From a virus: a stretch of DNA of 34,568 nt. The stretch is taken from positions 1 through 34,568 of the IMG/VR virus record IMGVR_UViG_3300025649_000009, one strand, 5' to 3'. Of this stretch, positions 773 to 33,325 are shown one piece after another. Numbering within the stretch: the first letter of the stretch is position 1; each line of letters begins with the position of its first letter. Position numbers and translations under genes: made by a program. The notes below the pieces were generated by a model that saw nothing but the letters and a program-made list of their open reading frames with translations, did not search any database and was not told where the DNA came from.

Positions 773-2260
773 TTACTTCTTCGTGTCCATCTTGAGAGCC
801 TTGCCGAACGGAACCTCGACCTCTCTGAAATCGTTGTCGATCAGCCAGAGTGTCGGACGTGCGGACTTCTTCGGGAACGGTCCCATCCCGTCGGTCAAAT
901 AGATCACGCATTGCACGTCGCTCAACTTGCGGTCCTTCTTCAGTTCCTCGAACGGCGGGATGAAACTTGTTCCGCCACGTCCGGACCATGTCCAGCCGTC
1001 AGCCGTCTTCGGCTTCATCGGAAGATCGGTCGACTTGAAGGTCTCGTTGTATGTGATCCGAGTGTCGCATTGCATGATCGTCACCTTGCAGTTCGGGAAG
1101 GACTTGACGATCCCGTTGATCTCGGTGATCGAGCGGTCCATCTGTTCACGTCTCATCGAGCATGACGTGTCGATGACGAACATGATATGACCGACACCCT
1201 TCGAGCGGCGACTCGGGAGAATGACCTTGCTCCGTGTCGTCGAGCGGCGATGAGGTCTCTTCCATGAGTACCCGTTGCGGATCGTCTGAACTGCGAACTG
1301 ACGGAGTTCACGTTTCCAGTTGATGCGGGGAGCCGAGAGGACCGTGTGTCCGAGTTCCTTGATCCATGCCGGACAGTCACCGTGACGTTCGGATTCCATG
1401 ACGGCGGCGGCGACGTCCTCTTTCCATTCCTGAGTGAGTTCCTCGATCGTCTCGCCGTCCTCGAGCGGGATGTCCTCGACCTCTCCGACGATGGAGTCCT
1501 TCAGAGTCTCCGCCATGCGCTCGGCGGCTTCCTCTTCCGGTGTCGTTCCTGATGCCTGAGATGACGCCCGAGAGTCGCTCTCCCCGTCACTCGACTCTTC
1601 ACCCGACTCGGAGCCGTCAGCCCCGTCAGCGTCGTCTGAGGCGTCGTCACCCTCACCTTCGCCCTGATCGCCGTCCTCAGACCCCTCAGAATCGCTCTCG
1701 TCGCCCGAGCCGTCCTCGGCTGACTCATCATCCCCGTCTTCGGATTCGGAGCCTTCTCCGTCGTCTGAGGCGTCGTCCTGATCCTGTTCGTCTGTATCGT
1801 CGGAGTCAGAAGGTTCGTCGTCCTGATCCTGATTCCGCTTCACGATCTCGTCGAAGTACCACTCCGCCGACTTGCCTTCAGGATACTCGACGAACTCGCC
1901 ACGTCCGGCGAAGAGGAACTTGTCGAGATCGACGCCGTCTTCATTCCGGATGATGTGATTGATCGAGAGATCGCAAGCGACGTTCCAGAGCATCGGGTTC
2001 CGGTTCGCACGGCGCATCGTGTGTTTGTTCGTGATGTGAAGAACCTCGTGACGCTCGACCCATCCGACGGTCGACTCGGGGATGCTGAGAACGAAGTCGG
2101 GATTGAACTTGATGACCTTACCGTTCGTCGACATCGTCTTCACGTCCGTCGTCTCGATGTGCGCCCTCTTCGATGCGATGCTGTAAAAATACGGAGCCGT
2201 GCGAAGCATTGAAATCATCGCCCGTTTCACTAGGTCTTTCGCTGTCATCTTGATTGTCAT
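773..2260 (-). CDS. DUF2201-type metallopeptidase with acidic linker and VWA domain
   Basis: The start at 2260 is chosen because AAGGGA lies six bases upstream; more upstream in-frame starts lack this. Residues 1-140 hold a zincin-like region with HEVLHITNKH at 71-80 (HExxH plus a third His). Residues about 143-233 are an Asp/Glu/Ser-rich linker. Residues about 358-495 form a von Willebrand A domain with all three MIDAS elements visible: DTSCS near 364, GGT near 430 and TDG near 457. This matches the DUF2201 family, usually encoded beside a MoxR-type ATPase, and that ATPase is the next gene upstream. Family members are thought to act with the ATPase as a metal-dependent chaperone or remodelling pair; the target is unknown. 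It has its own promoter at 2301-2329 and follows a terminator, so it is expressed separately from the ATPase. Confidence 0.88.
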   Translation of the reverse strand: MTIKMTAKDLVKRAMISMLRTAPYFYSIASKRAHIETTDVKTMSTNGKVIKFNPDFVLSIPESTVGWVERHEVLHITNKHTMRRANRNPMLWNVACDLSINHIIRNEDGVDLDKFLFAGRGEFVEYPEGKSAEWYFDEIVKRNQDQDDEPSDSDDTDEQDQDDASDDGEGSESEDGDDESAEDGSGDESDSEGSEDGDQGEGEGDDASDDADGADGSESGEESSDGESDSRASSQASGTTPEEEAAERMAETLKDSIVGEVEDIPLEDGETIEELTQEWKEDVAAAVMESERHGDCPAWIKELGHTVLSAPRINWKRELRQFAVQTIRNGYSWKRPHRRSTTRSKVILPSRRSKGVGHIMFVIDTSCSMRREQMDRSITEINGIVKSFPNCKVTIMQCDTRITYNETFKSTDLPMKPKTADGWTWSGRGGTSFIPPFEELKKDRKLSDVQCVIYLTDGMGPFPKKSARPTLWLIDNDFREVEVPFGKALKMDTKK

Positions 2261-2300
2261 CGTCGTCCCTTCGTTGTTATTAAACTTGATCATGAGAGAG

Positions 2301-2329
2301 ATTCTCGCATCTCTGATCTTGAGAGTCAA
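2301..2329 (-). promoter_or_regulatory. promoter for the VWA gene
   Basis: On the minus strand TTGACT (2324-2329) is followed after 17 bases by GAGAAT (2301-2306), with TGC immediately before it as an extended -10. It lies 40 bases upstream of the VWA start and directly after the terminator of the upstream gene. Confidence 0.6.
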
Positions 2330-2379
2330 GAGCATATGAGAAGATTTCTCACTTTATTTTCGGGGGTCCAGAACAGCAA

Positions 2380-2406
2380 AAGGGACGGGGTTTCCCCCGT
2401 CCCTGT
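2380..2406 (-). terminator. Rho-independent terminator after the MoxR gene
   Basis: On the minus strand a nine-base GGGACGGGG/CCCCGTCCC stem with a four-base loop is followed by TTTTGC. It lies about 20 bases after the stop of the ATPase gene and before the VWA promoter. Confidence 0.85.
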
Positions 2407-2426
2407 CGCTCTCGCTGTCCTTTCTG

Positions 2427-3509
2427 CTATTGGGCGATGTTCTTGTGAGCGTTCATCCACTCGCTTACGATCGGCATTGCGGCGATCGCCGGATGAGTTT
2501 CCTGTCCCTTCAGGATCACGAACATCGTGATCTCTTCCGGAAGCCTGACGGCGTACCTGATGATCGACTCGTTGCGAGCCTTGTCGTCGTTGAACAGTTC
2601 GCCGAGTGAGGCGGCGATCGCAACGAGGACGTCAGGATCATCCGGAACCGTGACGGGCTCGGGGTCCGTGAAGATCGCCGTGAGATCGGGCATCCGGTCG
2701 AAGGCTCGGCGGAATGACAGGAACACGGGAGCGTCAGCCTGTCCGACACATCCGGCGATCAGAGCCGGAAGGATGTCGGCTGTCTTGAACTCAGCTTCGT
2801 CACAAGCGATTGCGATCCGGTCGGCGTTGTCCCATGAGCGGCGAGTCTTGATTGCGTAGTCTTCGAACTCCGGTGCTTCCGGACTCCACACATCATGACG
2901 GAACCGAGCGAAGGAACGCATCGCCTGAGAGATGCCATTGTCAGCCGCCCACTTTTCCCACGACTGAAGTCCGCCTTCGTCATTCTGATTGATGTATATG
3001 TGACAGATTCTCGAGCGTTGTGCGACAGTCATCTCGATCGTCCCGTCGTCAAGCGATCCGTTTCCGGCGCATACGACTCGGACGTTCTTCCCGAGCTTGT
3101 GTCCGTTCATCTCACGATCGAGAAGCAACTGAAGGGAGACGTTCCGCATCGAGGGAGCATCAGGACGATCGATCTCGTCGAGGAAGAGAAGACCCTTTTC
3201 TTCGACATCGCCGTTCCGGTTCTCGAGGACTTTCTCGAACGGGATGATCTCGCTGATGTAGTACTCGAGAAGTCCGGTGTCAGGATTCGGATGAGGCGCA
3301 CCGAAATCGCAAGGCTCTTTGTCAGAGACTCGGACGTCGTACAGATTCCACGAAAGACGAGCGGCGATCTGTTTCATGATCGAGGACTTGCCGTCTCCGC
3401 ACATTCCCCACATCATCACGGGGACGTCGGCGAGCAAGCAAGCGACGACCGCTCGTGATGCTTCCTCGAGGTTCATTGTCAGGACTGAGTTCATGTTGTC
3501 GTTGTTCAT
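2427..3509 (-). CDS. MoxR-type AAA+ ATPase
   Basis: The start at 3509 (MNNDNMNSVL) has AAGGGAAG just upstream. The 360-residue protein carries a Walker A GMCGDGKSS at 35-43, a Walker B LLFLDEID at 107-114 and an arginine-containing segment (VAQRSR) in the expected sensor/finger region. This is the layout of a MoxR-like ATPase, which uses ATP hydrolysis to remodel protein partners, usually working with a VWA-domain protein. The VWA/metallopeptidase partner is the next gene downstream. In phage genomes such pairs are accessory rather than structural. A separate terminator and promoter between the two genes would allow different expression levels. Confidence 0.88.
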   Translation of the reverse strand: MNNDNMNSVLTMNLEEASRAVVACLLADVPVMMWGMCGDGKSSIMKQIAARLSWNLYDVRVSDKEPCDFGAPHPNPDTGLLEYYISEIIPFEKVLENRNGDVEEKGLLFLDEIDRPDAPSMRNVSLQLLLDREMNGHKLGKNVRVVCAGNGSLDDGTIEMTVAQRSRICHIYINQNDEGGLQSWEKWAADNGISQAMRSFARFRHDVWSPEAPEFEDYAIKTRRSWDNADRIAIACDEAEFKTADILPALIAGCVGQADAPVFLSFRRAFDRMPDLTAIFTDPEPVTVPDDPDVLVAIAASLGELFNDDKARNESIIRYAVRLPEEITMFVILKGQETHPAIAAMPIVSEWMNAHKNIAQ

Positions 3510-3524
3510 TGTCTTCCCTTTCAT

Positions 3525-3546
3525 GGGGGAGCGTTATTGCTCCCCC
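3525..3546 (-). promoter_or_regulatory. strong stem-loop just before the MoxR ribosome binding site
   Basis: A perfect eight-base GGGGGAGC/GCTCCCCC stem with a six-base loop (AATAAC on the minus strand) lies between the 71-residue gene and the ATPase gene. No T-run follows on the minus strand, so it is unlikely to be a simple terminator. It sits within 16 bases of the ATPase start and could be a transcript-processing or stabilising element. Confidence 0.6.
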
Positions 3547-3557
3547 GAGTTTCGTTG

Positions 3558-3773
3558 TTATGCGTAAGTACCTTTGACCGACCATGTCTCGACGCCGTCG
3601 CAAAGAAGGCGAGCCATGAAAGTATTCTCCCACATGATCTCTTCCTCGATGTGACGCTCGGCGGCTGTTGCCGAGGCCCACGTCCGACGCTCCGTCGGTG
3701 TGTCGTCCCTGAACATGACCTCCGTCTCTATTTTCTGTTCCGGTGCCGTCAGGATCGTCGTTGCGTTATTCAT
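3558..3773 (-). CDS. 71-residue unknown protein
   Basis: The start at 3773 (MNNATTIL) has GGAGAA seven bases upstream; an in-frame ATG at 3818 lacks such a site. The protein is rich in Glu and Thr with a central helix (ASATAAERHIEEEIM) and an aromatic C-terminus. No signal, membrane segment or Cys cluster is visible. It is first behind the promoter at 3826-3854 and leads the ATPase gene, so it may belong to the same transcription unit. I do not recognise a family. Confidence 0.6.
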   Translation of the reverse strand: MNNATTILTAPEQKIETEVMFRDDTPTERRTWASATAAERHIEEEIMWENTFMARLLCDGVETWSVKGTYA

Positions 3774-3825
3774 GTTCTTTTTCTCCGTCGTTGCTGTTGT
3801 TGTTTCCGCCTTGTTCATGGTTCAA

Positions 3826-3854
3826 AATCTACACTACACGGCAAGAGGTGTCAA
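3826..3854 (-). promoter_or_regulatory. promoter leading the MoxR unit
   Basis: A consensus TTGACA (3849-3854) is followed after 17 bases by TAGATT (3826-3831) on the minus strand. The spacing to the start at 3773 leaves a leader of roughly 45 bases. Confidence 0.7.
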
Positions 3855-3928: not shown

Positions 3929-4099
3929 ATGAAGAAAGTTTTGACGAGCAAGGTGATCGAGGTCCGTTTTTCACACGATCATGATTTCATGACTCTCCCG
4001 AATCACGAGAACGGACGTCAGGCAAAGAGGTTTTTGAACCATCGCTTGACCGTGTGGAAATGGAAAGCGATCCATCCGAAGCGGACGACTTGTCGGTGA
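3929..4099 (+). CDS. possible 56-residue plus-strand gene
   Basis: This is the only plus-strand frame that looks at all like a gene: ATG after GAGG at an eight-base spacing, reading MKKVLTSKVIEVRFSHDHDF and ending HPKRTTCR. The first half lies in the otherwise empty stretch 3855-4017; the second half runs antisense to the end of the DUF1353 gene. No convincing plus-strand promoter is visible. It would be convergent with the DUF1353 gene. It may be chance; I place it below even odds. Confidence 0.3.
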   Translation: MKKVLTSKVIEVRFSHDHDFMTLPNHENGRQAKRFLNHRLTVWKWKAIHPKRTTCR

Positions 4100-4428
4100 T
4101 AAAGCCGAGCGACTTTTCGAGTGAACGGATCGGAACTATTCGTCATCAGGAAGAGAAGAAGATCGTCGGCTTCCTCGAGTGTGATCTCTGATCCGTCATC
4201 CCATTTGCGATCGGAGCCTTCGAGGTCAAGAGCGTAGTCGTGAGCGATCGCCGGAACGGGGTCAGGCGTGTTCGGAGCGAACGTGTATTCGTCATGTTCG
4301 TAATCGACCGGAATCGTCAGTTGCTTCCCGTGTCTTGACTGAACAACGATCGTCTCTGTGACGGTCCACGTCTTCCCCCGCTCCGACGGGAGCAACTCAA
4401 TCTTTGATCCGGTTCGCCTCGATGTCAT
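4018..4428 (-). CDS. DUF1353-like phage protein
   Basis: The 136-residue protein has the pattern of DUF1353: a beta-rich front with ITIP-like TIPVDYEHDEYTF, an AHDYALDL segment (the family's conserved HDY motif), a helix with EADDLLLFLM, and a late VVRFGWIAFH segment. DUF1353 proteins occur in tailed phages, often near tail or lysis genes, without firm function. The start overlaps the end of the transglutaminase-like gene by 32 bases; a GAGG lies about nine bases upstream of the ATG. It is the last gene of the long structural transcription unit. Confidence 0.75.
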   Translation of the reverse strand: MTSRRTGSKIELLPSERGKTWTVTETIVVQSRHGKQLTIPVDYEHDEYTFAPNTPDPVPAIAHDYALDLEGSDRKWDDGSEITLEEADDLLLFLMTNSSDPFTRKVARLYHRQVVRFGWIAFHFHTVKRWFKNLFA

Positions 4429-5050
4429 CTTTCACTCGCCTCTTCAATTCGAATTGAACGTGACTCCATGCGTGACGATGATTGAACGAGAACCAGACGT
4501 CCCGATATTCCGGACGATCCTTGACGAGCGTCTTCTCTGCGACCGGAGTGTCGGCGTCTTCGAGGTAACACCAATCGAGAGCGATCCATTCGTTGTCGGA
4601 GCATCGGCAGTAAACGCAGTAAGCGTGTCCCCCCTCGGCGGCTCCGGCTCCGGCGTCGACCCATCCCGCCGCAACTCGGACTCTCCATTGATGCTCGTCA
4701 GGGAGAGCGTTGAGAAGAAGAGAGGCGATCAGGATCGCACCGTCTTCACAATCACCCTTCTTCATCGCACACGTCTCGGCGGGGAACATCCAATATTCGG
4801 GGACGCCGAGAGTCGAGTCGCTGACATACGACAGCATCTTCGTCACGAATTGCTGACAGCGATGAGCGGTCTCGTCGTTCGACTGAGTCCTGAGATTGTT
4901 GCATCCGATCAGACGAAGAAGTTCGATGTCGTCTTCCCAAACGAATTGACGGACGTCCATGTCGTAAGCATTCCCATTCGGGAGCGGTCGTCCGGAATAG
5001 AGTTGCGGCGTGAGAGGATGCTTGTTGTGCCAATAATCGGGAGTCTTCAC
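4397..5050 (-). CDS. transglutaminase-like cysteine peptidase-fold protein
   Basis: I choose the GTG at 5050, which overlaps the upstream stop as GTGA, giving 217 residues. The catalytic triad of the transglutaminase-like fold is visible: Cys about 101 in KKGDCEDGA, His about 142 in EGGHAYCVY and Asp about 159 in IALDWCY. Members can be peptidases, transferases or amidases; the substrate cannot be read here. No signal peptide is present. Its position after the exported proteins and beside DUF1353 would fit a role in cell-wall processing or virion maturation, but this is inference. No other lysin-like gene is visible in the window. Confidence 0.8.
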   Translation of the reverse strand: MKTPDYWHNKHPLTPQLYSGRPLPNGNAYDMDVRQFVWEDDIELLRLIGCNNLRTQSNDETAHRCQQFVTKMLSYVSDSTLGVPEYWMFPAETCAMKKGDCEDGAILIASLLLNALPDEHQWRVRVAAGWVDAGAGAAEGGHAYCVYCRCSDNEWIALDWCYLEDADTPVAEKTLVKDRPEYRDVWFSFNHRHAWSHVQFELKRRVKDDIEANRIKD

Positions 5051-5637
5051 AAGTATGAGTCCCACGGATACGGATTGAAGAGGGTGAGATGCCAGTCCCC
5101 TTCGATGGTCTCCGTCGTTGTGTCTGTCATCTTGAAATAGATTGTCCGATTCTGCCCGTCGTTGAAGATGTCCGGCTCGAAAACATTCCCGTTGTTATCA
5201 GTCATCGTCGGAACAACATTCCAACTGATGAACGGCGGATCGAATTGCCAGTATGACACAACAAGATAATGCGCCTTCACGCCCCCGATTGTTCTGACTT
5301 GCAAGTCCTGTTGATCGAAGTCTAGGTCGAACCATTGCTCGGGAAGCCACGGTCTGTCACCGTCTTCATAGGCGATGCCATTCGTCGGAAGGTTATCCAC
5401 ACCGAAGGCGTCTTGACAATCCATGTTCGCAAGTACGTCGTCGACCTCGATCCCTTCGATGAGATTCGGGCAGTCATAGAGAACCTGTTGGCTCTCCCGA
5501 TACCAATCCCCATCCGGACCCCGAATCGGTCCGGTGACTGTCCGTCCCTGTTCCATCGCTTCGGCGACGAGGAACGCACCGACAAAGAGGCTGATGATCA
5601 CGAGATGTGTGAGGAAGAAGTTGCGACCGTGAAGCAT
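5047..5637 (-). CDS. exported unknown protein, paralogue of the next gene upstream
   Basis: The protein of 196 residues starts MLHGRNFFLTHL with a hydrophobic stretch to about residue 26 and a likely cleavage after AEA, so it is probably exported or membrane-anchored. It shares with the gene at 5650-6225 the motif NLPxNGIxxxDGD in the middle and a GxWxLTLxxP ending, so the two are tandem paralogues. Calcium-style DNNGN and DGDW motifs suggest beta-sandwich folds. GGGGGTC precedes the ATG. Function unknown; placed in the fibre/adhesin region. Confidence 0.75.
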   Translation of the reverse strand: MLHGRNFFLTHLVIISLFVGAFLVAEAMEQGRTVTGPIRGPDGDWYRESQQVLYDCPNLIEGIEVDDVLANMDCQDAFGVDNLPTNGIAYEDGDRPWLPEQWFDLDFDQQDLQVRTIGGVKAHYLVVSYWQFDPPFISWNVVPTMTDNNGNVFEPDIFNDGQNRTIYFKMTDTTTETIEGDWHLTLFNPYPWDSYL

Positions 5638-6230: not shown

Positions 6231-8075
6231 TTACTCCCTGATGAAGATCGGATGTCCGCCGATCCTGATGATTCTTTCGTCGACCCTGAGAAAGCCTTCT
6301 TCGAATGGCGGGATGACGAAAGAGAATGCGCCTTGTGAGAAGTTCCCGCCCTGAGGTCGACCGTTGCCGTCGATGTCTTCTTCGATCCCGATGTCGATCG
6401 CCGCTCCGACGCAAGGTGATCCGGACAAGATCGAGAAGTCGGAAGCGAAGAGAGGATCGGCGTCGATGTTCCCCGCTCCGGAATAGCCGCCTTCGATGTC
6501 GGAGTATGAGACGACAGCCGCTCCGAAGATTGCGTTGCTCGTTCCGGCGGCGTTGCCGTACACGATCGAGTTCGTGATCACGACCGTCACGCCTACGTCG
6601 GCGAAGATCGCTCCGCCTTTGTCGTTGCAAGTGTTTGTCGAGAATGTGCAATAAAGGAACCGAGCGTCGGCGGCTGATGTGATCTTGTCGAGGTACACCG
6701 CACCCCCGTCGCCGCTTGCGTTGACGTTCGCCATGTTGCCGGAGAAGAGAGAGTTCTCGACCGTCAAGACCGTCGCTCCGTTCTGAACGAACATCGCACC
6801 CCCGAGGAAGCCGCCGTCGTTCTCGATGAAACGACACCGCTTCACGGTACTCGTCACACCCCCCGCAATACCCGTCGACCAAAACAACATTGCTCCGCCT
6901 TTTTGGACCGAGAGATTTGCGATCGAGTTGCTGATGAATGTACAGTCCTCGAAGTCAAACGTGTCAGTTGCGTTCCCCTTGACAATCACCGCTCCGCCGA
7001 GAGAGTATGTCGCCCTGTTGCCGACGAACGTCGAGTTCAGAACTGAGACTGTGTTCCCCTGAAGGTTCAACGCTCCGCCGTTCCGAGCCGTGTTCCTCGT
7101 GAAGTCACAATCGACGATCGTCACGTTGTCCCCCGTAAGAGACATGATTGCGGATTCTGAGTTGAGAGTGAACTGACAGTTCGTGAAGAGATACCGAGTG
7201 TCCGTGAGAACGCTTCCAAGAAGAAAAAAGATGCCTTGAGACGTTCCGGTTGTATGATTGAGCCGGACGTCGCAGTCATCGAACTCCATTTGAGTCCCGT
7301 GTCCGGCGATATACATTGCCGCACCGCTGTACCCTGATGAGTTCGTGGAAAACGTGCATCGGTCGAACCGTCCCGACGAGACGAGAGGAACGTACATCAC
7401 GCCGCCGAACGTCCCCGCCGCATTATTCGTGAAGACCGTGTCGGCGACCCTGAGTTCGTCAAGTCCGTAGTTGTAAATCGAGCCGCCCTGAATCGCTGAG
7501 TTTGCGAGGAACGTGCAATTCGAGAGAGTGACAAGTTCGCCCGACGATGGCGGGTTGTAAAAGTACAATGCTCCGCCCTGAATCGATGCGGCGTTGTTGT
7601 CGAAGACGCAATTCCTGATCTCAACTGAATCAGCCGAGTTGACGCAACGCATCACGCCGCCGCCGGTCGAACTGTTGCCGTCTTTACAGAAGAACCCGTC
7701 GAGGACAATGTTGCCCGAGAACGGCAGAGACGTTCCGATCTGTTGGAAGACCGGACGAGAACCCGCACCCGAGAGGATCGATTGATCAGTCATCCATTGC
7801 CGCTCGGCAAGGCTCGTCATCCCGTTCGTGAATCCGCCGAAGAGACCGATGTCGATCATCGGGGGGAACGGACTGTTCGTGTATTGTCCGGCGGCGATCC
7901 AGAGATTCGTGCCCGCCTGTGAAGATGTGATTGCATTCGAGAGGTCCGTGTATGCGTCAGCCCACGACGAACCGTCGTTCGCTCCCGTAGCATTGATGTC
8001 GACATACTCCGTGACAGCGACAGCGACAGACGAGATCGAGAGCAATGCGATCATGATCAGGATGATTCGTTTCAT
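6231..8075 (-). CDS. exported right-handed beta-helix protein with POMP-like repeats
   Basis: A clear signal peptide (MKRIILIMIALLSISSVAVA) is followed by YVDINATGANDGSSWADAY, a hallmark front of bacterial parallel beta-helix proteins. Through about residue 530 there are recurrent GGA/GGAM...F...N..A segments (for example GGALYF, GGAVIV, GGAMLF, GGAMFV, GGAVYL), the pattern of Chlamydia polymorphic outer-membrane proteins. Near 545-590 a DADPLF...LSGSPCVGAA cap resembles the end of secreted beta-helix proteins in PVC-group and related bacteria. 614 residues; starts by ATGA overlap with the lipoprotein gene. In phages such folds serve as tailspikes or polysaccharide-binding fibres; the signal peptide makes a surface-displayed adhesin possible too. 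Confidence 0.85.
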   Translation of the reverse strand: MKRIILIMIALLSISSVAVAVTEYVDINATGANDGSSWADAYTDLSNAITSSQAGTNLWIAAGQYTNSPFPPMIDIGLFGGFTNGMTSLAERQWMTDQSILSGAGSRPVFQQIGTSLPFSGNIVLDGFFCKDGNSSTGGGVMRCVNSADSVEIRNCVFDNNAASIQGGALYFYNPPSSGELVTLSNCTFLANSAIQGGSIYNYGLDELRVADTVFTNNAAGTFGGVMYVPLVSSGRFDRCTFSTNSSGYSGAAMYIAGHGTQMEFDDCDVRLNHTTGTSQGIFFLLGSVLTDTRYLFTNCQFTLNSESAIMSLTGDNVTIVDCDFTRNTARNGGALNLQGNTVSVLNSTFVGNRATYSLGGAVIVKGNATDTFDFEDCTFISNSIANLSVQKGGAMLFWSTGIAGGVTSTVKRCRFIENDGGFLGGAMFVQNGATVLTVENSLFSGNMANVNASGDGGAVYLDKITSAADARFLYCTFSTNTCNDKGGAIFADVGVTVVITNSIVYGNAAGTSNAIFGAAVVSYSDIEGGYSGAGNIDADPLFASDFSILSGSPCVGAAIDIGIEEDIDGNGRPQGGNFSQGAFSFVIPPFEEGFLRVDERIIRIGGHPIFIRE

Positions 8076-17325: not shown

Positions 17326-19236
17326 TTATGCGAAGACGGCGGATCGCTTCGTGAGATCGACGATCTCTCCGAGTGATTCAATCATCGCTTTCCTTTGTTG
17401 TTCCGCTGTTCCTGAATCCTTTGTCAGAGCCGACACCGAGTCGGACGAAATCTTGACCTCTCCCGCATTCGTCGATCCGCCCGTTGCGGTTCCGGCGGCG
17501 ACGGATTTCGCTGATGCCGCAAATCCTTCCGAGGCGAACCGTTGCGCTGACTTGACAGCGTCGGCGAATCCAGTGAACGATCCTTTCGCTTTGTCGTTTG
17601 CCTTCTTCACCTTCTTCGCATTCGTCGTTTGTGCGTCGGTTGCCTGATTGGATGCGGCTTCGACGACGGCGGATGTCTCTTCGGCGACGGTTTGACTCTT
17701 CTCTTCCGACGCCCATCGTTCTTCAAACATCATTTGCGACGTCTTGTTCATGATCCCGATCTCTTTCTCCCACGCTTTTGAGAGCGACTTGAACTTCGGG
17801 ATTTGCCCCTTCGTGATGAAGTCGAACGCCGCCTTCGTGTTCGCAGAGAAGGTTTGAATGACGGCTCCCGCCGCTGTCATGCGTCCCATGATCTCATTGA
17901 CAACGACCATCACTCCGAACTTGAGGTCTTCCCAGTATTTGACGAGAGCGACGACAGCCGCTCCGACGCCGATAATGATCGGGATGATCGGGAGAAGCGT
18001 CGAGAATGCGGCGACTCCCGCCGCAATCAACGGAACGATCAAGCCGAGGATCAGGAGCAAGGGACCGATCGCCGCAACGATCGCCGCAATGATGACGACC
18101 GTCTTCTTCCCGCCGTCGCTGAGATTGTCGAACCATGTCGTGACGAAGGCGATCCCGTCGGCGAGTTTCCGGACAGCCGGAGCAAGAGCCTTCCCGATCT
18201 GAAGTCCCATGACAGAGAGAGCCGCCTTCGCCCGATCAAGAGCGAACCCGAGTCCCTTCATCTGTTCAGCGAGAGCGTCAGCCGTAGCACCCGCACGACC
18301 TTCCCTCGTTGCGATGACTGCAAGATCGCCCGCAAAGTCCGCTCCGCCATTTCTCGCAAGACCGAACGCCGCCTTCAATGCTCGGATGTTGATCCCGAGT
18401 TCGGTGAAACCGGAAGCCGCTCCGCCCGTCTTGTCGATCAAGAATTGCATCGCTCCGCCGAGACCTCGAGACTGAATGATATTCGCTCCGGTCCCCTCGG
18501 CAGTCGAGGCGAAGAGCGTCTCGAGTTCTTTCGTCGGCTTGATGAACGTCAACATGAGTCGATTGAGTGACGTGAATGCTTCCGTCGTCTTGATGCCGCC
18601 TCGAGTCAGCGTTGCCGCCGCCGCCGCAATCTCGTCGAAGTTGACCTTCGCCGCCGCACCCGTAGCCGTTGCCGCTCCCATGTTCTCGGCGAGTTCTCCA
18701 AACGTGAGGACACCTTTCTCGACCGTCTTGAACAGAACGTCGGAGACGTCTCCCGCTTCCGAGGCTTCGAGACCATACGCATTGAGAATGTTCGTGATCG
18801 CCTTCGCCGACGTTGCCGTGTCCGTGACTCCGGCTCGTCCGGCTTCCGTCGCCGCCCGAAGAACGTCGAGTCCGTCGGCTCCGACAATACTTGCGGAGTT
18901 GATATTGTAGAGAGCCTCGGCGAGATCGGTCGGCGGCTTTCCCATCTCTTTCGAGAGAGACATCACCGTCGACGACATTGCGGCGAGTTCCTTCTCGCTG
19001 ACTTTGGCGATGACGTTCACGTTCCTCATCGCATCGTCGAACTTCGCAAACGATCGGACGGACACAACACCGATCGCCGCAATCGGAGCCGTGAGTCCAA
19101 TGCTCATCCGTCGACCGACTTGCTTCATCTTCTTCGAGGCGGACTGAAGACGAGATTGAACGGTCGACATCTTCTTGTTGAAGTCGGCGATGTTCGCCGT
19201 GACTTGAACAAAGGCGTCAGCGATTTTCGTTGCCAT
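17326..19236 (-). CDS. tail tape measure protein, TP901-like
   Basis: The 636-residue protein has the typical N-terminal helical segment (ADFNKKMSTVQSRLQSASKKM), then the conserved PhageMin_Tail core (SFAKFDDAMRNVNVIAKVSEKE, LAEALYNINSASI, AITNILNAYG, TTEAFTSLNRLM), a glycine-rich ALNAL-like stretch, and hydrophobic segments at about 375-430 (VVIIAAIVAAIGPLLLILG). It sets tail length and is ejected with DNA; it is short, so the tail should be short for a siphovirus, on the order of 100 nm by the usual length rule. GAGGGTGTAAC precedes the ATG, two bases after the chaperone extension stop. Confidence 0.93.
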   Translation of the reverse strand: MATKIADAFVQVTANIADFNKKMSTVQSRLQSASKKMKQVGRRMSIGLTAPIAAIGVVSVRSFAKFDDAMRNVNVIAKVSEKELAAMSSTVMSLSKEMGKPPTDLAEALYNINSASIVGADGLDVLRAATEAGRAGVTDTATSAKAITNILNAYGLEASEAGDVSDVLFKTVEKGVLTFGELAENMGAATATGAAAKVNFDEIAAAAATLTRGGIKTTEAFTSLNRLMLTFIKPTKELETLFASTAEGTGANIIQSRGLGGAMQFLIDKTGGAASGFTELGINIRALKAAFGLARNGGADFAGDLAVIATREGRAGATADALAEQMKGLGFALDRAKAALSVMGLQIGKALAPAVRKLADGIAFVTTWFDNLSDGGKKTVVIIAAIVAAIGPLLLILGLIVPLIAAGVAAFSTLLPIIPIIIGVGAAVVALVKYWEDLKFGVMVVVNEIMGRMTAAGAVIQTFSANTKAAFDFITKGQIPKFKSLSKAWEKEIGIMNKTSQMMFEERWASEEKSQTVAEETSAVVEAASNQATDAQTTNAKKVKKANDKAKGSFTGFADAVKSAQRFASEGFAASAKSVAAGTATGGSTNAGEVKISSDSVSALTKDSGTAEQQRKAMIESLGEIVDLTKRSAVFA

Positions 19237-21150: not shown

Positions 21151-21492
21151 TCAAGTCCTCAACGTGACATCGATCTGAAGAAAGTCGCCGACTTCGTGAG
21201 GATCGTTCGGGAACGTGATGTCGAACTCCCGTGATCCAATCTTGATAAAGTTCTTTTGCGAGACGAGAACGATCGGGGTTCCGCCGTGCGTCGTTTGGCA
21301 ATAGATTCGGTGAGTCGTTTCCTCTCCCTGTTTCCCGAGAATGTTTCGTTCGTATCCCGTCTTCGCCCTGATCCGACAAGGGACGTCCGAGAAGACGGTC
21401 GTCTCTGTCTGAGTCCACGACGCCGACGTGTCAGCCGCATTGACATACGCAAGGATCGTCATCGTCGTGTTGTACCAGTTCGAAATATCCAT
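21151..21492 (-). CDS. head closure / head-tail joining protein
   Basis: The 113-residue protein is beta-rich with a DVPCRIRAKTGYER segment and HRIYCQTTHGGTPIVL and a KIGSREFDITFPND...VGDFLQIDV end, which is the pattern of the SPP1 gp16-like head-tail joining family. It overlaps the previous connector stop by one base (TGATG). Confidence 0.82.
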   Translation of the reverse strand: MDISNWYNTTMTILAYVNAADTSASWTQTETTVFSDVPCRIRAKTGYERNILGKQGEETTHRIYCQTTHGGTPIVLVSQKNFIKIGSREFDITFPNDPHEVGDFLQIDVTLRT

Positions 21493-22106
21493 CAGAACAC
21501 ATACAGCTTTCGTCTTCGATACTTGTTGAGGACCGCTTCCGTCTGAGGTGGAACGGCGACACCCGAGCCGACCGACGATCCGATGACGGCGTCGGAGTAT
21601 GTCTTCGCCGCATCAGCGAGACGTTCAGACTTGAGCGCACCCGATCCCGATTCACGAGCGACGAACTTGAAGGCGACGAGGTCGATGCAAGCCTGAGAGA
21701 GATCGGCGGGAATGTTTCCGGATTCGTACCCCGCACGGTATTCGATCTTAATCGACTTGAGTCCTTCGGAGAATGTCGACCCATCCAGTTTGACGAGTCC
21801 CTCTCGATCGTAGAACACGAAGTCAGCCGAGGCGACTTCCGTCCCTGAACCGAACGCACGTTCCGGATCGTCGTACAAAGACGTCACGGAGATGATCGGA
21901 TATTGATTGAGCAAGAGAACGCCGTTGTTGTACTTGACGCCGTCGTATTGCTCGGCGTAGTCCGTAGCCTCGAACACCCTGTCGCAATAGCCTTCGATGA
22001 ACGACGACATCCGATTGATCAGATTTGTCAAGAGAGCGTCGTGTGTCGTGTCAGCCGTCGGGATGCCGAGAAACTCTTTCACGTCTGCGAGTGTTGTCAA
22101 CGCCAT
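21492..22106 (-). CDS. head-tail connector, gp6-like
   Basis: The N-terminus TTLADVKEFLGIPTADTTHDALLTNLINRMSSFIEGYCDR is the classical front of the gp6/gp15-like connector family, followed by a beta-rich middle (PIISVTSLYDD) and a helical end. 204 residues. It forms the ring below the portal. Its gene lies directly after the 86-residue gene and before the head closure gene. Confidence 0.87.
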   Translation of the reverse strand: MALTTLADVKEFLGIPTADTTHDALLTNLINRMSSFIEGYCDRVFEATDYAEQYDGVKYNNGVLLLNQYPIISVTSLYDDPERAFGSGTEVASADFVFYDREGLVKLDGSTFSEGLKSIKIEYRAGYESGNIPADLSQACIDLVAFKFVARESGSGALKSERLADAAKTYSDAVIGSSVGSGVAVPPQTEAVLNKYRRRKLYVF

Positions 22107-22454: not shown

Positions 22455-23372
22455 TTACGCCGGAGGGATGATCCCTTCGATCCGAGAGCAATACTTCTCA
22501 TTCGCCAGAACGGGGACGATGTCCTCGTACACGTCGAACGAATCGAACTGCGAAGAAGTCTTTGCCAGATCGAGAAGCGTGAGTTCCGACAGGACACCCG
22601 TCCAGAACTTCGTCGTGTCCACGACGAACAGATCGGAAGCGTTCGAGGACGTTCCTTCGACCTGAATGTCGCTGATGTGCTGACTCCAGAAGATCGGAAT
22701 GTCGTTGTATGAGATCAGCTTGAATCCGCCGTTCACTTCGGTCCGGTCAACGAAACGCTGACTTGACTGAAGAAGCGCATTCAACTGACGCCGTGAACGC
22801 TTCGAGGCGATGATCATGTTCGGCTGTCCGTAGCAAGCATCGATCGCTTCGTCCATTGCCTCGAGCGTGAGAGCCGCACCATTGCCCGTGCCGAGTGTGA
22901 GAACCTGTCCGACGGGGATCAGATTCCTCAGTCCGTCCGGTTGCTTCGGATCGCCCGAGTTGTCGCCGTTGAACAATGCCCATTCTTCACCGTCACGGAT
23001 GACGTCGAGGCAAGCGTTCGTCTCTTCGGCCTTGATGTCGGCATACGTCCGACCCGTCGCCTGAAGTTTGCGAGTCACCTTTCCACGAGACACGACCGTC
23101 CGATAAATGAACGGGGTCTGTGTGTAAGTTGAGTTCGAATCACCCGGCTCTTCGGTGTCGTTCACCCATGAAGAATCAGGAGCGACCGTCCGCTTGTTGA
23201 TGAGAGCCTCTTTGCCGCCACCCGTCTTGCGAGGGATGTTGTTGCGAAGAGGGTTGTTGACGAGAATCAAGGACTGAATGACCTTGTCGACTTCCGGTTG
23301 CATGAGAATATCACCCGCTCCGGCGATGTCCAATGCTTTGACGAGTTCCTCGAGATTGCGATCGACTTTCAT
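22455..23372 (-). CDS. major capsid protein, HK97 fold
   Basis: The 305-residue protein has an N-terminal helical arm (LVKALDIAGAGDILMQPEVDK), an E-loop-like region (TVVSRGKVTRKLQATGR), the spine-helix segment ADIKAEETNACLDVIRDGEEWALFNGD, and late P-domain/A-domain strands (NMIIASKRSRRQLNALLQ, ISYNDIPIFWSQ, DLFVVDTTKFW). It matches phage capsids of the HK97 fold. GAAGGAG lies before the ATG. The protein is shorter than many because no long N-terminal delta domain is present; scaffolding is likely supplied by the preceding protease gene. Confidence 0.9.
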   Translation of the reverse strand: MKVDRNLEELVKALDIAGAGDILMQPEVDKVIQSLILVNNPLRNNIPRKTGGGKEALINKRTVAPDSSWVNDTEEPGDSNSTYTQTPFIYRTVVSRGKVTRKLQATGRTYADIKAEETNACLDVIRDGEEWALFNGDNSGDPKQPDGLRNLIPVGQVLTLGTGNGAALTLEAMDEAIDACYGQPNMIIASKRSRRQLNALLQSSQRFVDRTEVNGGFKLISYNDIPIFWSQHISDIQVEGTSSNASDLFVVDTTKFWTGVLSELTLLDLAKTSSQFDSFDVYEDIVPVLANEKYCSRIEGIIPPA

Positions 23373-24081: not shown

Positions 24082-24963
24082 TTACCGACCCGCATTCTGT
24101 ACAGCGTACAGAGTTTTCAACTGTTCGTCCGGAGTCTGTCCCTCGAGTTTCTTCTGAAGTTTCTCTGCCGCTGACAGAGTTGCTTCCGTCTCTTTGGGAT
24201 CACGCCCTTTTCGGATGACCTCTTTCTGAGAATCTTTCAACACGACCGAACCCGATGACGGGAACGGACAAGGTGATTCGCTCTTCCGCATTTCCTCGGC
24301 AGTCTTGCGAAGAGTCTTCCCGACCTCGAGAGCGGTCTCGTCCGCACTCTTCTCGAGAGCCGTCGCCTGTTCGAACAGACCGTCGCTCGCCGCCTTGCCC
24401 ATCGGATACGGATACGGGAACCCGACCGGAAGTTCGGACGTTTTGCAGAACACTTGCCATGCTTCGTCAACCTTCGTCTGATCGGTTTCGAATGTGATAC
24501 CGACGGTCTTCGAGAACTTTACCCATTCCTCGGAGAGAACCTCGGGAGCGGGGAAGCCTTTCTTCTCGATGACGGCAACGACGAGCTTCTTTTGTACAGG
24601 CTCGGGGTCCGGCTTCGGATCAGCGTCGGGAGCCGGATCAGCATCCGGAGCCGGAGCGGGGTCCGCATCGGGCTTCGGGTCTGCATCAGGAGCGGGATCG
24701 GCATCCGGTTTCGGATCGCCGTCAGGCTTCGGGTCCGCATCGGGAGCCGGAGCCGGATCAGCGTCAGGCTTCGGGTCTTCGTCCGGCTTGGGATCGGCAT
24801 CGGGCTTCGGGTCTGCATCAGGAGCGGGATCGTCGGATTTCTTGAACTCGATTGCGAGTCCCTTCGAGATCATGTCGGCGGCTTCAATCGGACTGAGGTC
24901 GGCAACCTGTCCGGCTTCATACTGTCCGATCGCTTCGCTGAACTTTACTGTGATAGGTTTCAT
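24082..24963 (-). CDS. possible internal-start scaffold product of the protease gene
   Basis: At 24963 an in-frame ATG (residue 258) is preceded by AGGAAGGGA at a nine-base spacing, a real-looking ribosome binding site inside a gene. The product would begin MKPITVKFSEAIGQYEAGQV, a front often seen at the true start of small phage head proteins, and keep the whole repeat and helical C-terminal part (293 residues). This is the same layout as lambda C/Nu3, where the internal product is the scaffold. Inference from sequence only. Confidence 0.55.
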   Translation of the reverse strand: MKPITVKFSEAIGQYEAGQVADLSPIEAADMISKGLAIEFKKSDDPAPDADPKPDADPKPDEDPKPDADPAPAPDADPKPDGDPKPDADPAPDADPKPDADPAPAPDADPAPDADPKPDPEPVQKKLVVAVIEKKGFPAPEVLSEEWVKFSKTVGITFETDQTKVDEAWQVFCKTSELPVGFPYPYPMGKAASDGLFEQATALEKSADETALEVGKTLRKTAEEMRKSESPCPFPSSGSVVLKDSQKEVIRKGRDPKETEATLSAAEKLQKKLEGQTPDEQLKTLYAVQNAGR

Positions 24964-25734
24964 GAGTGACGGTCCCTTCCTGTTTTCAATTAGTGCTTTT
25001 GATACATACCATGTCAACGCCTTCGCCTCGGGATTCGCCGGAACTGAGACAAGGGATGCTTCTGCAAGTAGCATCCTCTTGATCACCCGAACGGCATATC
25101 CGAGAGACTCAACGAACTCTTCGGCGGCGTCAAGTATTTGACCCCGTATCGAAAACTTGTTGAGAATCCCTTGCTTGATGAGATCAACGACCTTCGCTCC
25201 GGTCCTCGGGATCACGGACGACTTGTCGATGACTGCATCGATCAACATTCCTGACGGCGTGAGTTCTTGTTTCACGACTCGACCGATTGGAGCGTCGTCA
25301 TCGTGATTGAACAAAAGTGTCGAGTTCGTCATGAGGTCTTCTTCGGAGTTCTTCAAAGCATCCGGTGAGATCATGTCGCCTTGCATATCGAGATCAGACG
25401 TCGTCGCATATCCGACGAGATGGAAGTCGCCCTTGCTGTCCTTGTACGTCTTCTGAATCTGAAGTCGTGCGTTGAACCCGATCTCCGAGTTCGCCTTCTC
25501 TCCGGAAGCGGGTTCGAACTCGATCGCTGAGAACTCGTGATCCGCCAACCATGAACGAGTCTCGGCGACAGAGTATTTCGAGACGTCGAATCGGATCGCC
25601 TGAATCTCGGACGCTCCGTTCTTGATGCCGAAGATCACGTCGATCCCTTCGCCGAAGAAGTCGTCTGATCTGCTGAATGAAGAGTATTGCTCGGGGTCTG
25701 TAATCCGTGCGGCGTGTTCGTTCGGAAACGGCAT
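24082..25734 (-). CDS. prohead protease fused to a scaffold-like region
   Basis: The 550-residue protein begins with MPFPNEHAARITDPEQY, common in XkdF/S78-type prohead proteases. The protease domain spans about 85-245: catalytic His144 in LLFNHDDDAPIG, Ser195 in NKFSIRGQI and the LLAEASLVSVPANPEA closing motif. Residues about 258-300 are an insertion-like module (see the internal start), residues about 301-379 are Asp-Pro-Ala-Lys repeats, and the rest is helical and charged, as in a scaffold. It cleaves capsid and scaffold during head maturation. GGGG precedes the ATG, and a promoter at 25776-25805 drives it. Confidence 0.88.
   Translation of the reverse strand: MPFPNEHAARITDPEQYSSFSRSDDFFGEGIDVIFGIKNGASEIQAIRFDVSKYSVAETRSWLADHEFSAIEFEPASGEKANSEIGFNARLQIQKTYKDSKGDFHLVGYATTSDLDMQGDMISPDALKNSEEDLMTNSTLLFNHDDDAPIGRVVKQELTPSGMLIDAVIDKSSVIPRTGAKVVDLIKQGILNKFSIRGQILDAAEEFVESLGYAVRVIKRMLLAEASLVSVPANPEAKALTWYVSKALIENRKGPSLMKPITVKFSEAIGQYEAGQVADLSPIEAADMISKGLAIEFKKSDDPAPDADPKPDADPKPDEDPKPDADPAPAPDADPKPDGDPKPDADPAPDADPKPDADPAPAPDADPAPDADPKPDPEPVQKKLVVAVIEKKGFPAPEVLSEEWVKFSKTVGITFETDQTKVDEAWQVFCKTSELPVGFPYPYPMGKAASDGLFEQATALEKSADETALEVGKTLRKTAEEMRKSESPCPFPSSGSVVLKDSQKEVIRKGRDPKETEATLSAAEKLQKKLEGQTPDEQLKTLYAVQNAGR
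24597..24834 (-). repeat. tandem repeat coding for Asp/Pro/Ala/Lys
   Basis: DNA repeats of the type GGATCxGCxTCxGG on the plus strand encode variants of DADPKP and DADPAP over residues about 301-379 of the protease/scaffold protein. It is a flexible acidic linker and a likely site for length variation. Confidence 0.85.
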
Positions 25735-25932: not shown

Positions 25933-28116
25933 TTAGCCGCTCACGATCGGAATCCATGTGCATCGGCAGTTGGGATGAATCGGAAGGATACCCCCCGCAT
26001 CGCCGAGGACGTACACGTTCCCGTCGAACGGCGTACACTCCGGACAGGCTGTCTCGGCAAGAAGAAACTCGACTTGCTGAACCTTCCCCGTTTGAGCGTA
26101 TGAGTCGAGCGCACCTTGATTCATGAACCGACTTGTCTCCGTCCGTGCGACGAGCCTTGCACGTTCCTCGATCGTGATGACCCTCGTGTGTGCTTCCCTT
26201 ACGAACCCCGCACGGATCACCTTCCCGTCAGCCGCAACGACCGGAGCGACTGTCGACTCGGCGACCGGAACAACGACCGGAGCATCGAGAGCGGTCTCGA
26301 CCCGACCGATCAGAGCCGGAGTCTCTTCGCCGAGTTGAATCCCCTCGAGCAATGTCGCCTTCACTTCGTCCGAGATCGAACTCGCAAAGTATCCCGAGAG
26401 TTCTGCCGTGTACTCTCTCAGATCGGCGAGAACTTCCTTCGTCGGAATATAGAGCGCACCGAGTTCCGGCAACTGAGACTTGAGCCGGACTTGCGCCGTC
26501 TGTCCGCCTTGCTGAGTGATCGGAATGAGATGACCGTCCATGATCTCGGCGATCTCGGCGGCGGAGATCACATCGAGCGCACCGTCGAAGTCCGAGATTC
26601 CCTTCATCGAGACGGGGAACTTCCTCGAGCGGAACGAGTATCCCGTGAACTTGAACGCCGTGAAGCGATGTTCGAACGGACTCGAGAGGGACGATTGAAT
26701 CTTCTCACGCTTCAGAGTCTTCACACGATCGAGAACACGCTTCTTCAAATCACGGAAGTAATCAGAGAGAGCGTCGGCGAATGCGTTCTCCATGTCGAAG
26801 ATCGCCGGAGTCGCACCGATATTCGTCTCCGTCCTTGTGATCGGCTCGTCCGCTTTCTTGAGAGACTTCGCCGCAACGGGAGCGACCGTCGTCGTGTTGA
26901 TCGGCGTCGGGATGTCGTCACGAGGCTCGAGTCCGAGAGAATTGCGGCGGACCTCTTCCGGATGAAGAACGTGATTCGACAAATAAATCTGATCGGCTTC
27001 CGCTTGATCTTTCCGGTTGATCACCCGTCTCTTGAACTGGAACTTCCATGCGGTGATTCCGAAACCGTCACGGACGATTTGCTTGTTGAACCGAGCTTCA
27101 ATCTTGTTCTGAAGAGGAAGGACCGTCTCTTCGTAGAACGTCAAGTCCTGAGACTCACCGGAGCCGCCGCCGATGTTCCCTGTCTCGATCAATGCGATCT
27201 TTGCCGGAGGTACGTCGAAGACTGCGAGAATCTCGTCACGATGGAACGTCCGAAGTTTGTGGAACTCCATGTCATAGAGGTCCGACCCCATCTTGACATA
27301 ATTCATTTTCCCTTCCATCAGAATATCGCCCTTCGCCTGTTCGGGCTTCTTTGCGATCTCTTGAAGATATGCACGGTTCCGATCGACTTGATCCGGCGTT
27401 GCTCCCTCGATCGAGATCGCACCCCGCACCTTCGCACCCCGTTCGAAGAATGCTTTGTTGTATGCCGCCGCCTGTTTGTCGGCCGTGACGGTTTCGATCA
27501 GCGAAGCGATCTTCGAGAGACCGTCGACACTCCGACCCTTCTTCCCCTGACGGAAGAACAGAATCTCGGACGGCTTGAACTCGACCTTCGTCGTCCCCTG
27601 AATCTTCTGTTGATGCTTCTCGATCCGACCCCTGTCGTCCGTGATCGTTCCCATCGTCGCCGGATCAAGACCCCAGAGTTCGGCGGGGACTCCGCCTTCA
27701 CCCGCAACGATCTCCGTCCAGTTGCGACCCGCAATCAAGATGTCACGACCGATGTCTTCGACGATGTCCTCGAACAAGTCTTGAGGATTCGGGTCCGTGA
27801 AGAACGTCTCGAGTTTCGCCTTCTCGTCGTCCTTGCCTCGTTTCGATTCGACGGTCGGGATGATCTCCCATCCTCGAGCAACGATCGACTTCGTCGTGAC
27901 GTCGGTGACTGCCCTGATCCATGAGCAATGCTCGTATGTCGCATAGTAAATCTGAGTCGCACTCATCGCCGAGTTCTGATCTGACGCCTGAGTTCCGGGA
28001 AGGACGGAGATGAATCCCCGAAGTGACTTCCGGATGTCAGCGACTTCCGCACTCGCAACCCGCTTCGCTTCGTCTCGTATGACTCCGCCGAATATCTTGT
28101 TCATGAACTTGTTCAT
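25933..28116 (-). CDS. portal protein fused to a MuF-like minor head domain
   Basis: The 727-residue protein has an HK97-type portal at about residues 45-420 (ATYEHCSWIRAVTDVTTKSI, WTEIVAGEGGVPAELWGLDP, DILAVFDVPPAKIALIE, DLTFYEETVLPLQNKIEARF) and then a region of about 300 residues. This ends with a MuF motif: ARLVARTETSRFMNQGALDSY, ETACPECTPFDG and HPNCRCTWIP at the C-terminus. MuF-type proteins are usually separate; here they are fused to the portal. The ring forms the DNA gate of the head, and MuF is thought to be injected or placed inside. Starts by ATGA overlap with the terminase gene. Confidence 0.93.
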   Translation of the reverse strand: MNKFMNKIFGGVIRDEAKRVASAEVADIRKSLRGFISVLPGTQASDQNSAMSATQIYYATYEHCSWIRAVTDVTTKSIVARGWEIIPTVESKRGKDDEKAKLETFFTDPNPQDLFEDIVEDIGRDILIAGRNWTEIVAGEGGVPAELWGLDPATMGTITDDRGRIEKHQQKIQGTTKVEFKPSEILFFRQGKKGRSVDGLSKIASLIETVTADKQAAAYNKAFFERGAKVRGAISIEGATPDQVDRNRAYLQEIAKKPEQAKGDILMEGKMNYVKMGSDLYDMEFHKLRTFHRDEILAVFDVPPAKIALIETGNIGGGSGESQDLTFYEETVLPLQNKIEARFNKQIVRDGFGITAWKFQFKRRVINRKDQAEADQIYLSNHVLHPEEVRRNSLGLEPRDDIPTPINTTTVAPVAAKSLKKADEPITRTETNIGATPAIFDMENAFADALSDYFRDLKKRVLDRVKTLKREKIQSSLSSPFEHRFTAFKFTGYSFRSRKFPVSMKGISDFDGALDVISAAEIAEIMDGHLIPITQQGGQTAQVRLKSQLPELGALYIPTKEVLADLREYTAELSGYFASSISDEVKATLLEGIQLGEETPALIGRVETALDAPVVVPVAESTVAPVVAADGKVIRAGFVREAHTRVITIEERARLVARTETSRFMNQGALDSYAQTGKVQQVEFLLAETACPECTPFDGNVYVLGDAGGILPIHPNCRCTWIPIVSG

Positions 28117-32274: not shown

Positions 32275-32739
32275 TCATCCGGCTCTTGTCAGTTTGATCA
32301 TCGGTCGAGGTTTGCTTTCGGCTTTCTCTTGCCCTGATCCCTGTTCGTTCGAGTCTGAGAGAACCTTCTTCGTCTCGGCAGAGACGGCGGTTTGTACCTT
32401 GTTCGTCTGAGTGATTGAGGTCGGCTCGGTTGATGCGAGAGCCTGTTTCGAATAGAGCGTGTCAATGATCTTGGCGAGGTCTGAGGCGGAAGCATCAGCG
32501 ATCTTCGACTTCATCTTGTCGAGAGCCTTGAAGATCACTTCCCATGATTTCTTGATGAACTTGTTCTTGTGTGTGGCGAGTACCTTCGAGACGAATGGAG
32601 ATGCTTCGACCCAAAGTCTGAGGGTTCCGTAAGGGACGCCGATCTCTTTCGCTGTCTTGAGGTAGTTGCCCCCGTTCGCCATGAAAGCGGCGAGAGCGTT
32701 TTCCTTGTCGGCGTCGGTGTATTTGCGATGTTTCGCCAT
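32275..32739 (-). CDS. putative small terminase
   Basis: The start at 32739 (MAKHRKYTDADKENA) gives 154 residues; AGGA and GGAAGGG lie upstream. Residues 8-45 form a helix-turn-helix-like region (ALAAFMANGGNYLKTAKEIGVPYGTLRLWVE), residues 55-105 are helical, and the end is a disordered Gln/Ser/Lys-rich tail. This fits small terminases that recognise the packaging site. It is followed by the empty stretch and lies about 2.7 kb before the large subunit. Other DNA-binding proteins with a similar motif are possible. Confidence 0.72.
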   Translation of the reverse strand: MAKHRKYTDADKENALAAFMANGGNYLKTAKEIGVPYGTLRLWVEASPFVSKVLATHKNKFIKKSWEVIFKALDKMKSKIADASASDLAKIIDTLYSKQALASTEPTSITQTNKVQTAVSAETKKVLSDSNEQGSGQEKAESKPRPMIKLTRAG

Positions 32740-32772
32740 GAGTCCTGATCCCTTCCTCATTCAACGGCGGGA

Positions 32773-32802
32773 ATGATAGCACGGAGAGACGAGAGAGATC
32801 AA
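32773..32802 (-). promoter_or_regulatory. promoter of the small terminase
   Basis: TTGATC (32797-32802) is followed after 18 bases by TATCAT (32773-32778) on the minus strand with CCGTGC before it as extended -10. Leader about 27 bases. Confidence 0.75.
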
Positions 32803-33248: not shown

Positions 33249-33255
33249 GGTCGGG

Positions 33256-33285
33256 ATAGTATCACGGTCCTTGTGGATCGGTCGA
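33256..33285 (-). promoter_or_regulatory. promoter of the HNH gene
   Basis: TCGACC (33280-33285) and TACTAT (33256-33261) are 18 bases apart on the minus strand; TGA precedes the -10 as an extended element. The -10 ends eight bases before the HNH ATG. Confidence 0.6.
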
Positions 33286-33286
33286 G

Positions 33287-33325
33287 TCAGCCGACGATCT
33301 CTTCTCCGCATCCATCACACTTCAT
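33287..33325 (-). CDS. 12-residue Cys-motif peptide
   Basis: MKCDGCGEEIVG starts by ATGA overlap with the upstream gene. CDGCGEE is a zinc-ribbon half (CxxCG). It is a real coupled frame but very short, and could be a degenerate remnant of a zinc-ribbon protein. Confidence 0.35.
   Translation of the reverse strand: MKCDGCGEEIVG

Follow-up and report, generated by a model that had tools for sequence, protein, structure and literature searches.

What would a phage do with a MoxR-type ATPase and a partner that carries both a metallopeptidase and a VWA domain? The question is raised by two adjacent genes in IMG/VR record IMGVR_UViG_3300025649_000009, of which we analysed positions 1 to 34,568 (hereafter, the window), a linear sequence in which no end repeats were found across its 34,568 bases. 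We report that the pair is of a known kind, the gp24/gp25 type of phage N4 (phrog_1297/phrog_1314), and not a new system, and that it almost certainly represents an ATP-driven chaperone/peptidase pair of this kind.

Genomic context of the pair

All of the genes identified in the window lie on the minus strand, on which the tail-region genes are followed first by an 86-aa ORF, then by the MoxR gene and finally by that of the VWA protein (Table 1). The 86-aa ORF had no match in Pfam, PHROG or PADLOC. The original prediction, which was made from the sequence alone, placed the pair in a structural region; structural genes are indeed present, but the pair is situated past the last tail-region gene and outside the tail module. 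The GC3 of the pair (0.70-0.74) is close to that of the structural genes (0.68-0.71), and there is no sign of a recent horizontal insertion.

Table 1. Coordinates of the pair, its regulatory candidates and other genes of the window
Feature	Position	Strand	Basis or remark
Terminase large subunit (TerL)	28113-29528	-	PHROGs
Portal	25933-28116	-	PHROGs
Head maturation protease	24082-25734	-	PHROGs
Major head protein	22455-23372	-	PHROGs
Head-tail adaptor	21492-22106	-	PHROGs
Tape measure	17326-19236	-	PHROGs
Beta-helix protein, tail region	6231-8075	-	Pfam scan
Transglutaminase-like / CEP76-peptidase-like protein	4397-5065	-	weak Pfam matches below cut-off; among last tail-region genes
'Tail assembly chaperone'	4018-4428	-	weak PHROG match
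Promoter-like TTGACT-17-GAGAAT, before VWA start 2260	2301-2329	-	sigma70-like, 9/12
Promoter-like TTGACA-17-TAGATT, before 86-aa ORF upstream of MoxR	3826-3854	-	sigma70-like, 10/12; best in first 12 kb
86-aa ORF, between tail genes and MoxR gene	3558-3818	-	family unassigned
Hairpin GGGGGAGC/GCTCCCCC just before MoxR	3524-3547	-	-18.7 kcal/mol; no T tract on minus strand
MoxR-type AAA+ ATPase, 360 aa	2427-3509	-	phrog_1297 E 1e-59; PF00004 E 4e-5
Intrinsic-terminator-like hairpin between MoxR and VWA genes	2381-2404	-	10-bp stem, GAAA loop, T tract, -22 kcal/mol
DUF2201 protein, 495 aa: N-terminal HExxH metallopeptidase domain, acidic linker, C-terminal VWA domain	773-2260	-	PF13203 2e-32; PF09967 2e-18; phrog_1314 2e-79
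HEVLH zinc motif	2036-2050	-	protein residues 71-75
Acidic, low-complexity linker	1541-1840 (approximate)	-	composition; pLDDT
MIDAS DTSCS	1157-1171	-	protein residues 364-368

The MoxR ATPase and the DUF2201 protein carry intact motifs

Both of the predicted genes are present, and matches to Pfam and PHROG families agree with the identities that had been proposed for their products. The best start of the MoxR gene is at 3509, with the ribosome site AAAGGGA, and a longer ORF begins at 3524. The match of MoxR to PF00004 (Pfam AAA) is above the family cut-off, and the Walker A (GMCGDGKS) and Walker B (LLFLDE) motifs, the sensor-1 N and Arg172 are intact. Among relatives, the Walker A K, the Walker B D and the sensor N are invariant, and the Walker B E is replaced by D in nine proteins. 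The AlphaFold (AF2) model, which has a pLDDT of 90.6, is similar to dynein AAA (Z 15.6), CbbQ (Z 14.2), NorQ (Z 13.9) and Mdn1 (Z 13.4), with RavA absent among the top rows of the comparison, a result compatible with a RavA-like fold, and a search with the family profile returned midasin first (E 5e-32). Dynein AAA, CbbQ, NorQ and Mdn1/midasin are members of one clade of AAA+ proteins, that with the helix-2 insert. The score against TIGR01650, the equivalog for CobS of the cobaltochelatase CobS/CobT, was 20.9 bits, far below the cut-off of 558.55.

The matches of the VWA protein to PF13203 and PF09967 span nearly its whole length from the best start at 2260 (ribosome site GAAGGGA; a longer ORF begins at 2335). 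Its zinc motif with the following histidine (HEVLH-x4-H) and its MIDAS (DTSCS...T...D) are both intact, as had been predicted. The linker between the two domains contains 28 D and 16 E per 100 residues, and its description as extreme is well founded, given that its best 60-residue stretch (55% D/E) ranks first of 60 relatives, of which the median is 25%. It is predicted to be disordered, with an AF2 pLDDT below 50 at residues 170-221. The VWA region of the model matches integrin I domains (Z 13.6) and VWF A domains (Z ~13) in a fold comparison in which VWA domains filled the match list. The N-terminal part of the family profile (positions 35-88) finds the archaeal small protein MJ1213 (E 0.0014), which we take to be a metallopeptidase.

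The description of phrog_1314 is 'HNH endonuclease', and many phage records carry the same product name (e.g. NC_049469 and NC_021772). If this label were correct, then the VWA protein would be a nuclease. We give this reading virtually no credence, because the window protein has no HNH Pfam domain, the Pfam scan yields only DUF2201_N, DUF2201 and VWA models, with strong matches to PF13203 and PF09967, and the AF2 model shows a VWA fold. The domain scan thus contradicts the label, which obscures the metallopeptidase-VWA protein in annotations.

MoxR and the VWA protein form a fixed couple in phages

Relatives of the VWA protein are found on at least 506 IMG/VR contigs, and 535 phage records match. 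The loci compared here were obtained by IMG/VR scans with small alignments, which provided the best 80 of at least 506 loci via the VWA protein and 80 loci via MoxR; a single-protein scan with the window MoxR gave no match. The original prediction held the two proteins to be an established functional couple, and the survey of other phages bears this out: the partner gene is present in each of the 124 loci with 4 kb or more of flanking DNA on its side (66/66 in the VWA-recruited and 58/58 in the MoxR-recruited scan). Loss of co-occurrence, which would count against a couple, was not seen, as all 14 loci in which the partner was missed lie close to a contig end. When the loci were reduced to a non-redundant set of 68 (MoxR below 60% identity), MoxR was followed by VWA on one strand in 63 of them, as it is in the window, where the spacer is 166 nt. 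The distances of MoxR and VWA proteins are correlated in a mirror-tree comparison (r 0.71, against a permutation maximum of 0.29), a correlation that shared descent alone could give. Judged by these sequence comparisons, the two proteins form a fixed couple.

In 30 of the 68 non-redundant loci, a profile detects a DUF3150-like gene of about 300 aa between or beside the MoxR and VWA genes (for example, L016:7060-7962, L017:6887-7765, L004:5288-6160 and L097:3357-4385); one of four tested members matches PF11348 (DUF3150) at 4e-7. A profile search of the window did not find this gene, and DUF3150 is not named in the literature searched. It is possible that the DUF3150-like protein is a third component of the pair.

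In the 68 relatives, most genes directly next to the pair have no assigned family. Those that could be named are mostly replication and nucleotide genes (including dCTP deaminase, helicase, RNR, RecE and ligase), with few virion genes among them; in S-TIM54 and AH12 the pair adjoins virion genes. The distance to portal and terminase was too patchy for use, given that among 50 IMG/VR records a portal was detected in 6 and a terminase in 20, mostly weakly.

HExxH and MIDAS residues are invariant in relatives recruited via MoxR

Motifs that tolerate mutation in relatives would argue against a working machine. We relied on 20 non-redundant VWA proteins that had been recruited via MoxR alone and hence were unselected for VWA motifs. 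All 20 carry HExxH, the H and R that follow it, NxAxDxxxN and the five MIDAS residues; the last of these (D, S, S, T and D) are invariant in 67/67 non-redundant relatives. The VWA-recruited set agrees, although it is partly selected on the same motifs. At 11 annotated-phage loci, the MIDAS is kept in every protein, and one to three of the proteins deviate, or are misaligned, in the metallopeptidase domain. As far as alignments can tell, the motifs do not tolerate change. Together with the complete co-occurrence, this invariance points to strong selection on an enzymatic function.

The intergenic region contains a terminator-like hairpin

The terminator that had been predicted between the two genes is present in the form of a hairpin with a T tract, which reads AGGGACGGGG-GAAA-CCCCGTCCCT-TTT from 2404 to 2381; the fold of the 91-nt spacer has a z of -4.2. 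Where an additional hairpin had been placed between the genes, there is only a small GAGAA/TTCTC repeat that adjoins the terminator; the strongest hairpin besides the terminator (3547-3524) precedes MoxR.

Separate promoters had also been predicted. Sigma70-like sites do exist before the VWA start and before the 86-aa ORF (9/12 and 10/12), but the first 12 kb contain 5 sites of this kind, as many as expected by chance (5.1 in shuffled sequence). Both sites fall in gene-free gaps, for which the post-hoc P is ~0.003, and separate promoters for the two genes are therefore suggestive only.

A terminator follows MoxR in 16 of the 68 loci (24%), and other genes have one at a rate of 12.8% (P 0.024 without correction, in one of two tests). 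Such terminators recur in Thermus phiFa, in Salmonella Munch (where it is annotated), in Staphylococcus AH12, in Pseudaeromonas KLEP7 and, as read from the sequence, in slurp01. With 16/68 loci, the terminator is recurrent and not general, and we rejected it as a family-wide rule. The strong hairpins directly 3' of MoxR are those of loci L003, L006, L008, L009 and L175 (slurp01) and of the window (2381-2404), which come from unrelated phages.

Relation to known MoxR-VWA systems

The original prediction overlooked the identity of the pair with N4 gp24/gp25 and with a jumbo-phage MoxR/MPTase-vWA pair. N4 gp24/gp25, the core pair of the Schitoviridae, shares with the window the same two families, gene order and motifs. 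In N4, as in the window, the VWA gene comes after MoxR with no gene between (the N4 spacer is 167 nt by annotation), and the proteins of the two phages are 24-26% identical. The N4 pair is located in a middle-gene region, among nucleotide-metabolism genes and near dCTP deaminase and RNAP2, and has no long acidic linker, whereas the window pair comes after the tail module and has a strong terminator-like hairpin between its genes. N4 gp24 and gp25 are middle-expressed, have no assigned function and are among the 14 core genes shared by 25 N4-like phages (PMC4193335), which makes it doubtful that the pair is accessory, as had been proposed. The pair is thus a very widespread phage gene couple, part also of the N4 core genome, for which we found no tested function: the literature searched contains no mutant phenotype for the pair and does not demonstrate metallopeptidase or ATPase-remodelling activity for its tailed-phage members. 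The question of function is testable in a model phage, since N4 can be propagated on E. coli K-12.

An identical architecture, MoxR beside a vWA protein whose N-terminal domain is a metallopeptidase, was described in jumbo phages by Iyer et al. (2021), who proposed a role in virion assembly with peptide processing (PMC7824862). The window differs from those phages in being a fragment of 34.6 kb that has a tail module of the tape-measure type and shows no sign of a jumbo genome. In Acidianus two-tailed virus (ATV), a viral MoxR, p618, and its VWA partner, p892, interact physically and are tied to tail development. The p618 protein is a major virion component that strongly binds p892 and three virion proteins, and its ATPase activity is raised by p892 (PMC4124505). 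The likeness of the ATV system to the window lies in the AAA and VWA folds; according to Iyer et al., it has no metallopeptidase domain (PMC7824862). RavA-ViaA, NorQ-NorD and CbbQ-CbbO likewise consist of a MoxR ring and a VWA partner, and the similarity of the window MoxR model to NorQ and CbbQ was described above, but the bacterial clients differ. RavA has a LARA domain and ViaA is without a metallopeptidase domain; the window partner carries PF13203. To our knowledge, none of the partners in these three systems is a DUF2201 metallopeptidase.

Discussion

We lean somewhat towards a full explanation in which the pair is an N4 gp24/gp25-type machine that acts on a virion protein. By comparison with its family, MoxR would form an ATP-driven AAA+ ring, of which the DUF2201 protein would be the dedicated partner. 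The metal site of the MIDAS may allow the C-terminal VWA domain to bind both the ring and the client, as NorQ-NorD, midasin and RavA-ViaA suggest, and the N-terminal zinc HExxH domain would cleave or clamp the client, with the acidic linker possibly serving as a flexible tether. Such a machine might assist, or proteolytically mature, tail or head parts. A terminator between the genes could result in more ring subunit than partner, which would suit a six-membered ring served by few partner molecules. Among the roles suggested in the original prediction, activation of a phage protein agrees best with these findings, in the form of a virion-assembly chaperone with a client that is only putative.

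With regard to the client, the evidence for a virion protein is about evenly balanced. A virion protein is the most likely candidate because in the window the pair comes straight after the tail genes, because a MoxR was detected in phAPEC6 virions and because ATV p618/p892 provides a precedent. The assignment stays tentative, since N4 expresses the pair in the middle phase and relatives seldom have virion genes next to it. In phAPEC6, an 'ATPase', gp265c, was detected in virions by 6 peptides with 19% coverage (PMC7247149). We assign gp265c as MoxR through the related Asteriusvirus slurp01 (L175, 3914-5239): its MoxR has a mass of 49.51 kDa, compared with 49.52 kDa in the paper (PMC7247149), and the gene order to thyA is the same, with neighbours of 25.03 kDa (25.02 in the paper) and, for thyA, 35.48 kDa (35.51 in the paper). 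One MoxR peptide was found in DC4 virions, whose authors warn that chaperones can co-purify with virions (PMC10638138). The VWA partner is not in the DC4 virion table, nor among the phAPEC6 virion proteins given in the portion of that report examined. In RPP1, a 'second structural module' is described beside the gp24/25 homologues (PMC4193335).

The same machine might have another client and remodel or mature a host or phage enzyme complex in the early or middle phase, an explanation that we regard as a serious contender with a less than even prospect. It would then act in the manner of NorQ-NorD, CbbQ-CbbO or CoxD-CoxE, on a complex for replication, transcription, nucleotide metabolism or the insertion of metal cofactors, and the position after the tail genes would be incidental because a new transcription unit would start at about 3826, as the promoter-like site before the 86-aa ORF and MoxR suggests. 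The middle-gene setting of N4 gp24/25 near dCTP deaminase and RNAP2, the replication and nucleotide genes among the named neighbours of relatives, a non-structural location in Bacillus phage 0305phi8-36 that has been noted by others, and the similarity of the MoxR model to CbbQ and NorQ all agree with this explanation, and against it stand the MoxR found in DC4 and phAPEC6 virions, the ATV precedent and the adjacency of the window pair to tail genes. A role in conflict with host defence, either as counter-defence or in host takeover, had been suggested as well. MoxR-vWA modules do occur in bacterial conflict systems (PMC7159879), and phage-wide conservation of the pair is compatible with such a role, but the described systems have other third components, neither protein matched a PADLOC 2.0.0 family at E <= 0.01, no defence gene is among the identified neighbours in relatives, the motifs are invariant, and a core pair across N4-like phages is unlike typical fast-changing counter-defence genes. 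We found no evidence for this role and consider it quite improbable.

Returning to the N4 gp24/gp25-type machine, one could envision a more elaborate version, in which a widespread and strictly linked assembly of MoxR ring and zinc-peptidase VWA adaptor, often including DUF3150, would proteolytically mature a virion or replication complex, and in which the lineage of the window would do without DUF3150, have the extreme acidic linker and use the terminator to set the ring-to-adaptor stoichiometry. We put this version forward as an unlikely one.

Other features of the window

The window also contains sequence repeats. About 32 copies of the 6-base repeat CCTGCT lie at 80-270, where a 137-aa ORF on the minus strand (30-443) contains a long repeat rich in Glu, Leu, Gln and Arg, and nested 18/36/96-base tandem repeats are found at 24608-24832, within the head-maturation-protease ORF. 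Upstream of the terminase, a weak terminase-small-subunit/HTH protein is located beside an HNH endonuclease (32275-32760 and 32799-33311), an arrangement that presumably resembles that of many cos-packaging phages. A scan of IMG/VR with TerL returned a sole contig, 3300005919_000017 (L014, 21.9 kb), which is from the same phage, being 99.99% identical over 16.4 kb, and the end of this contig almost coincides with the right end of the window.
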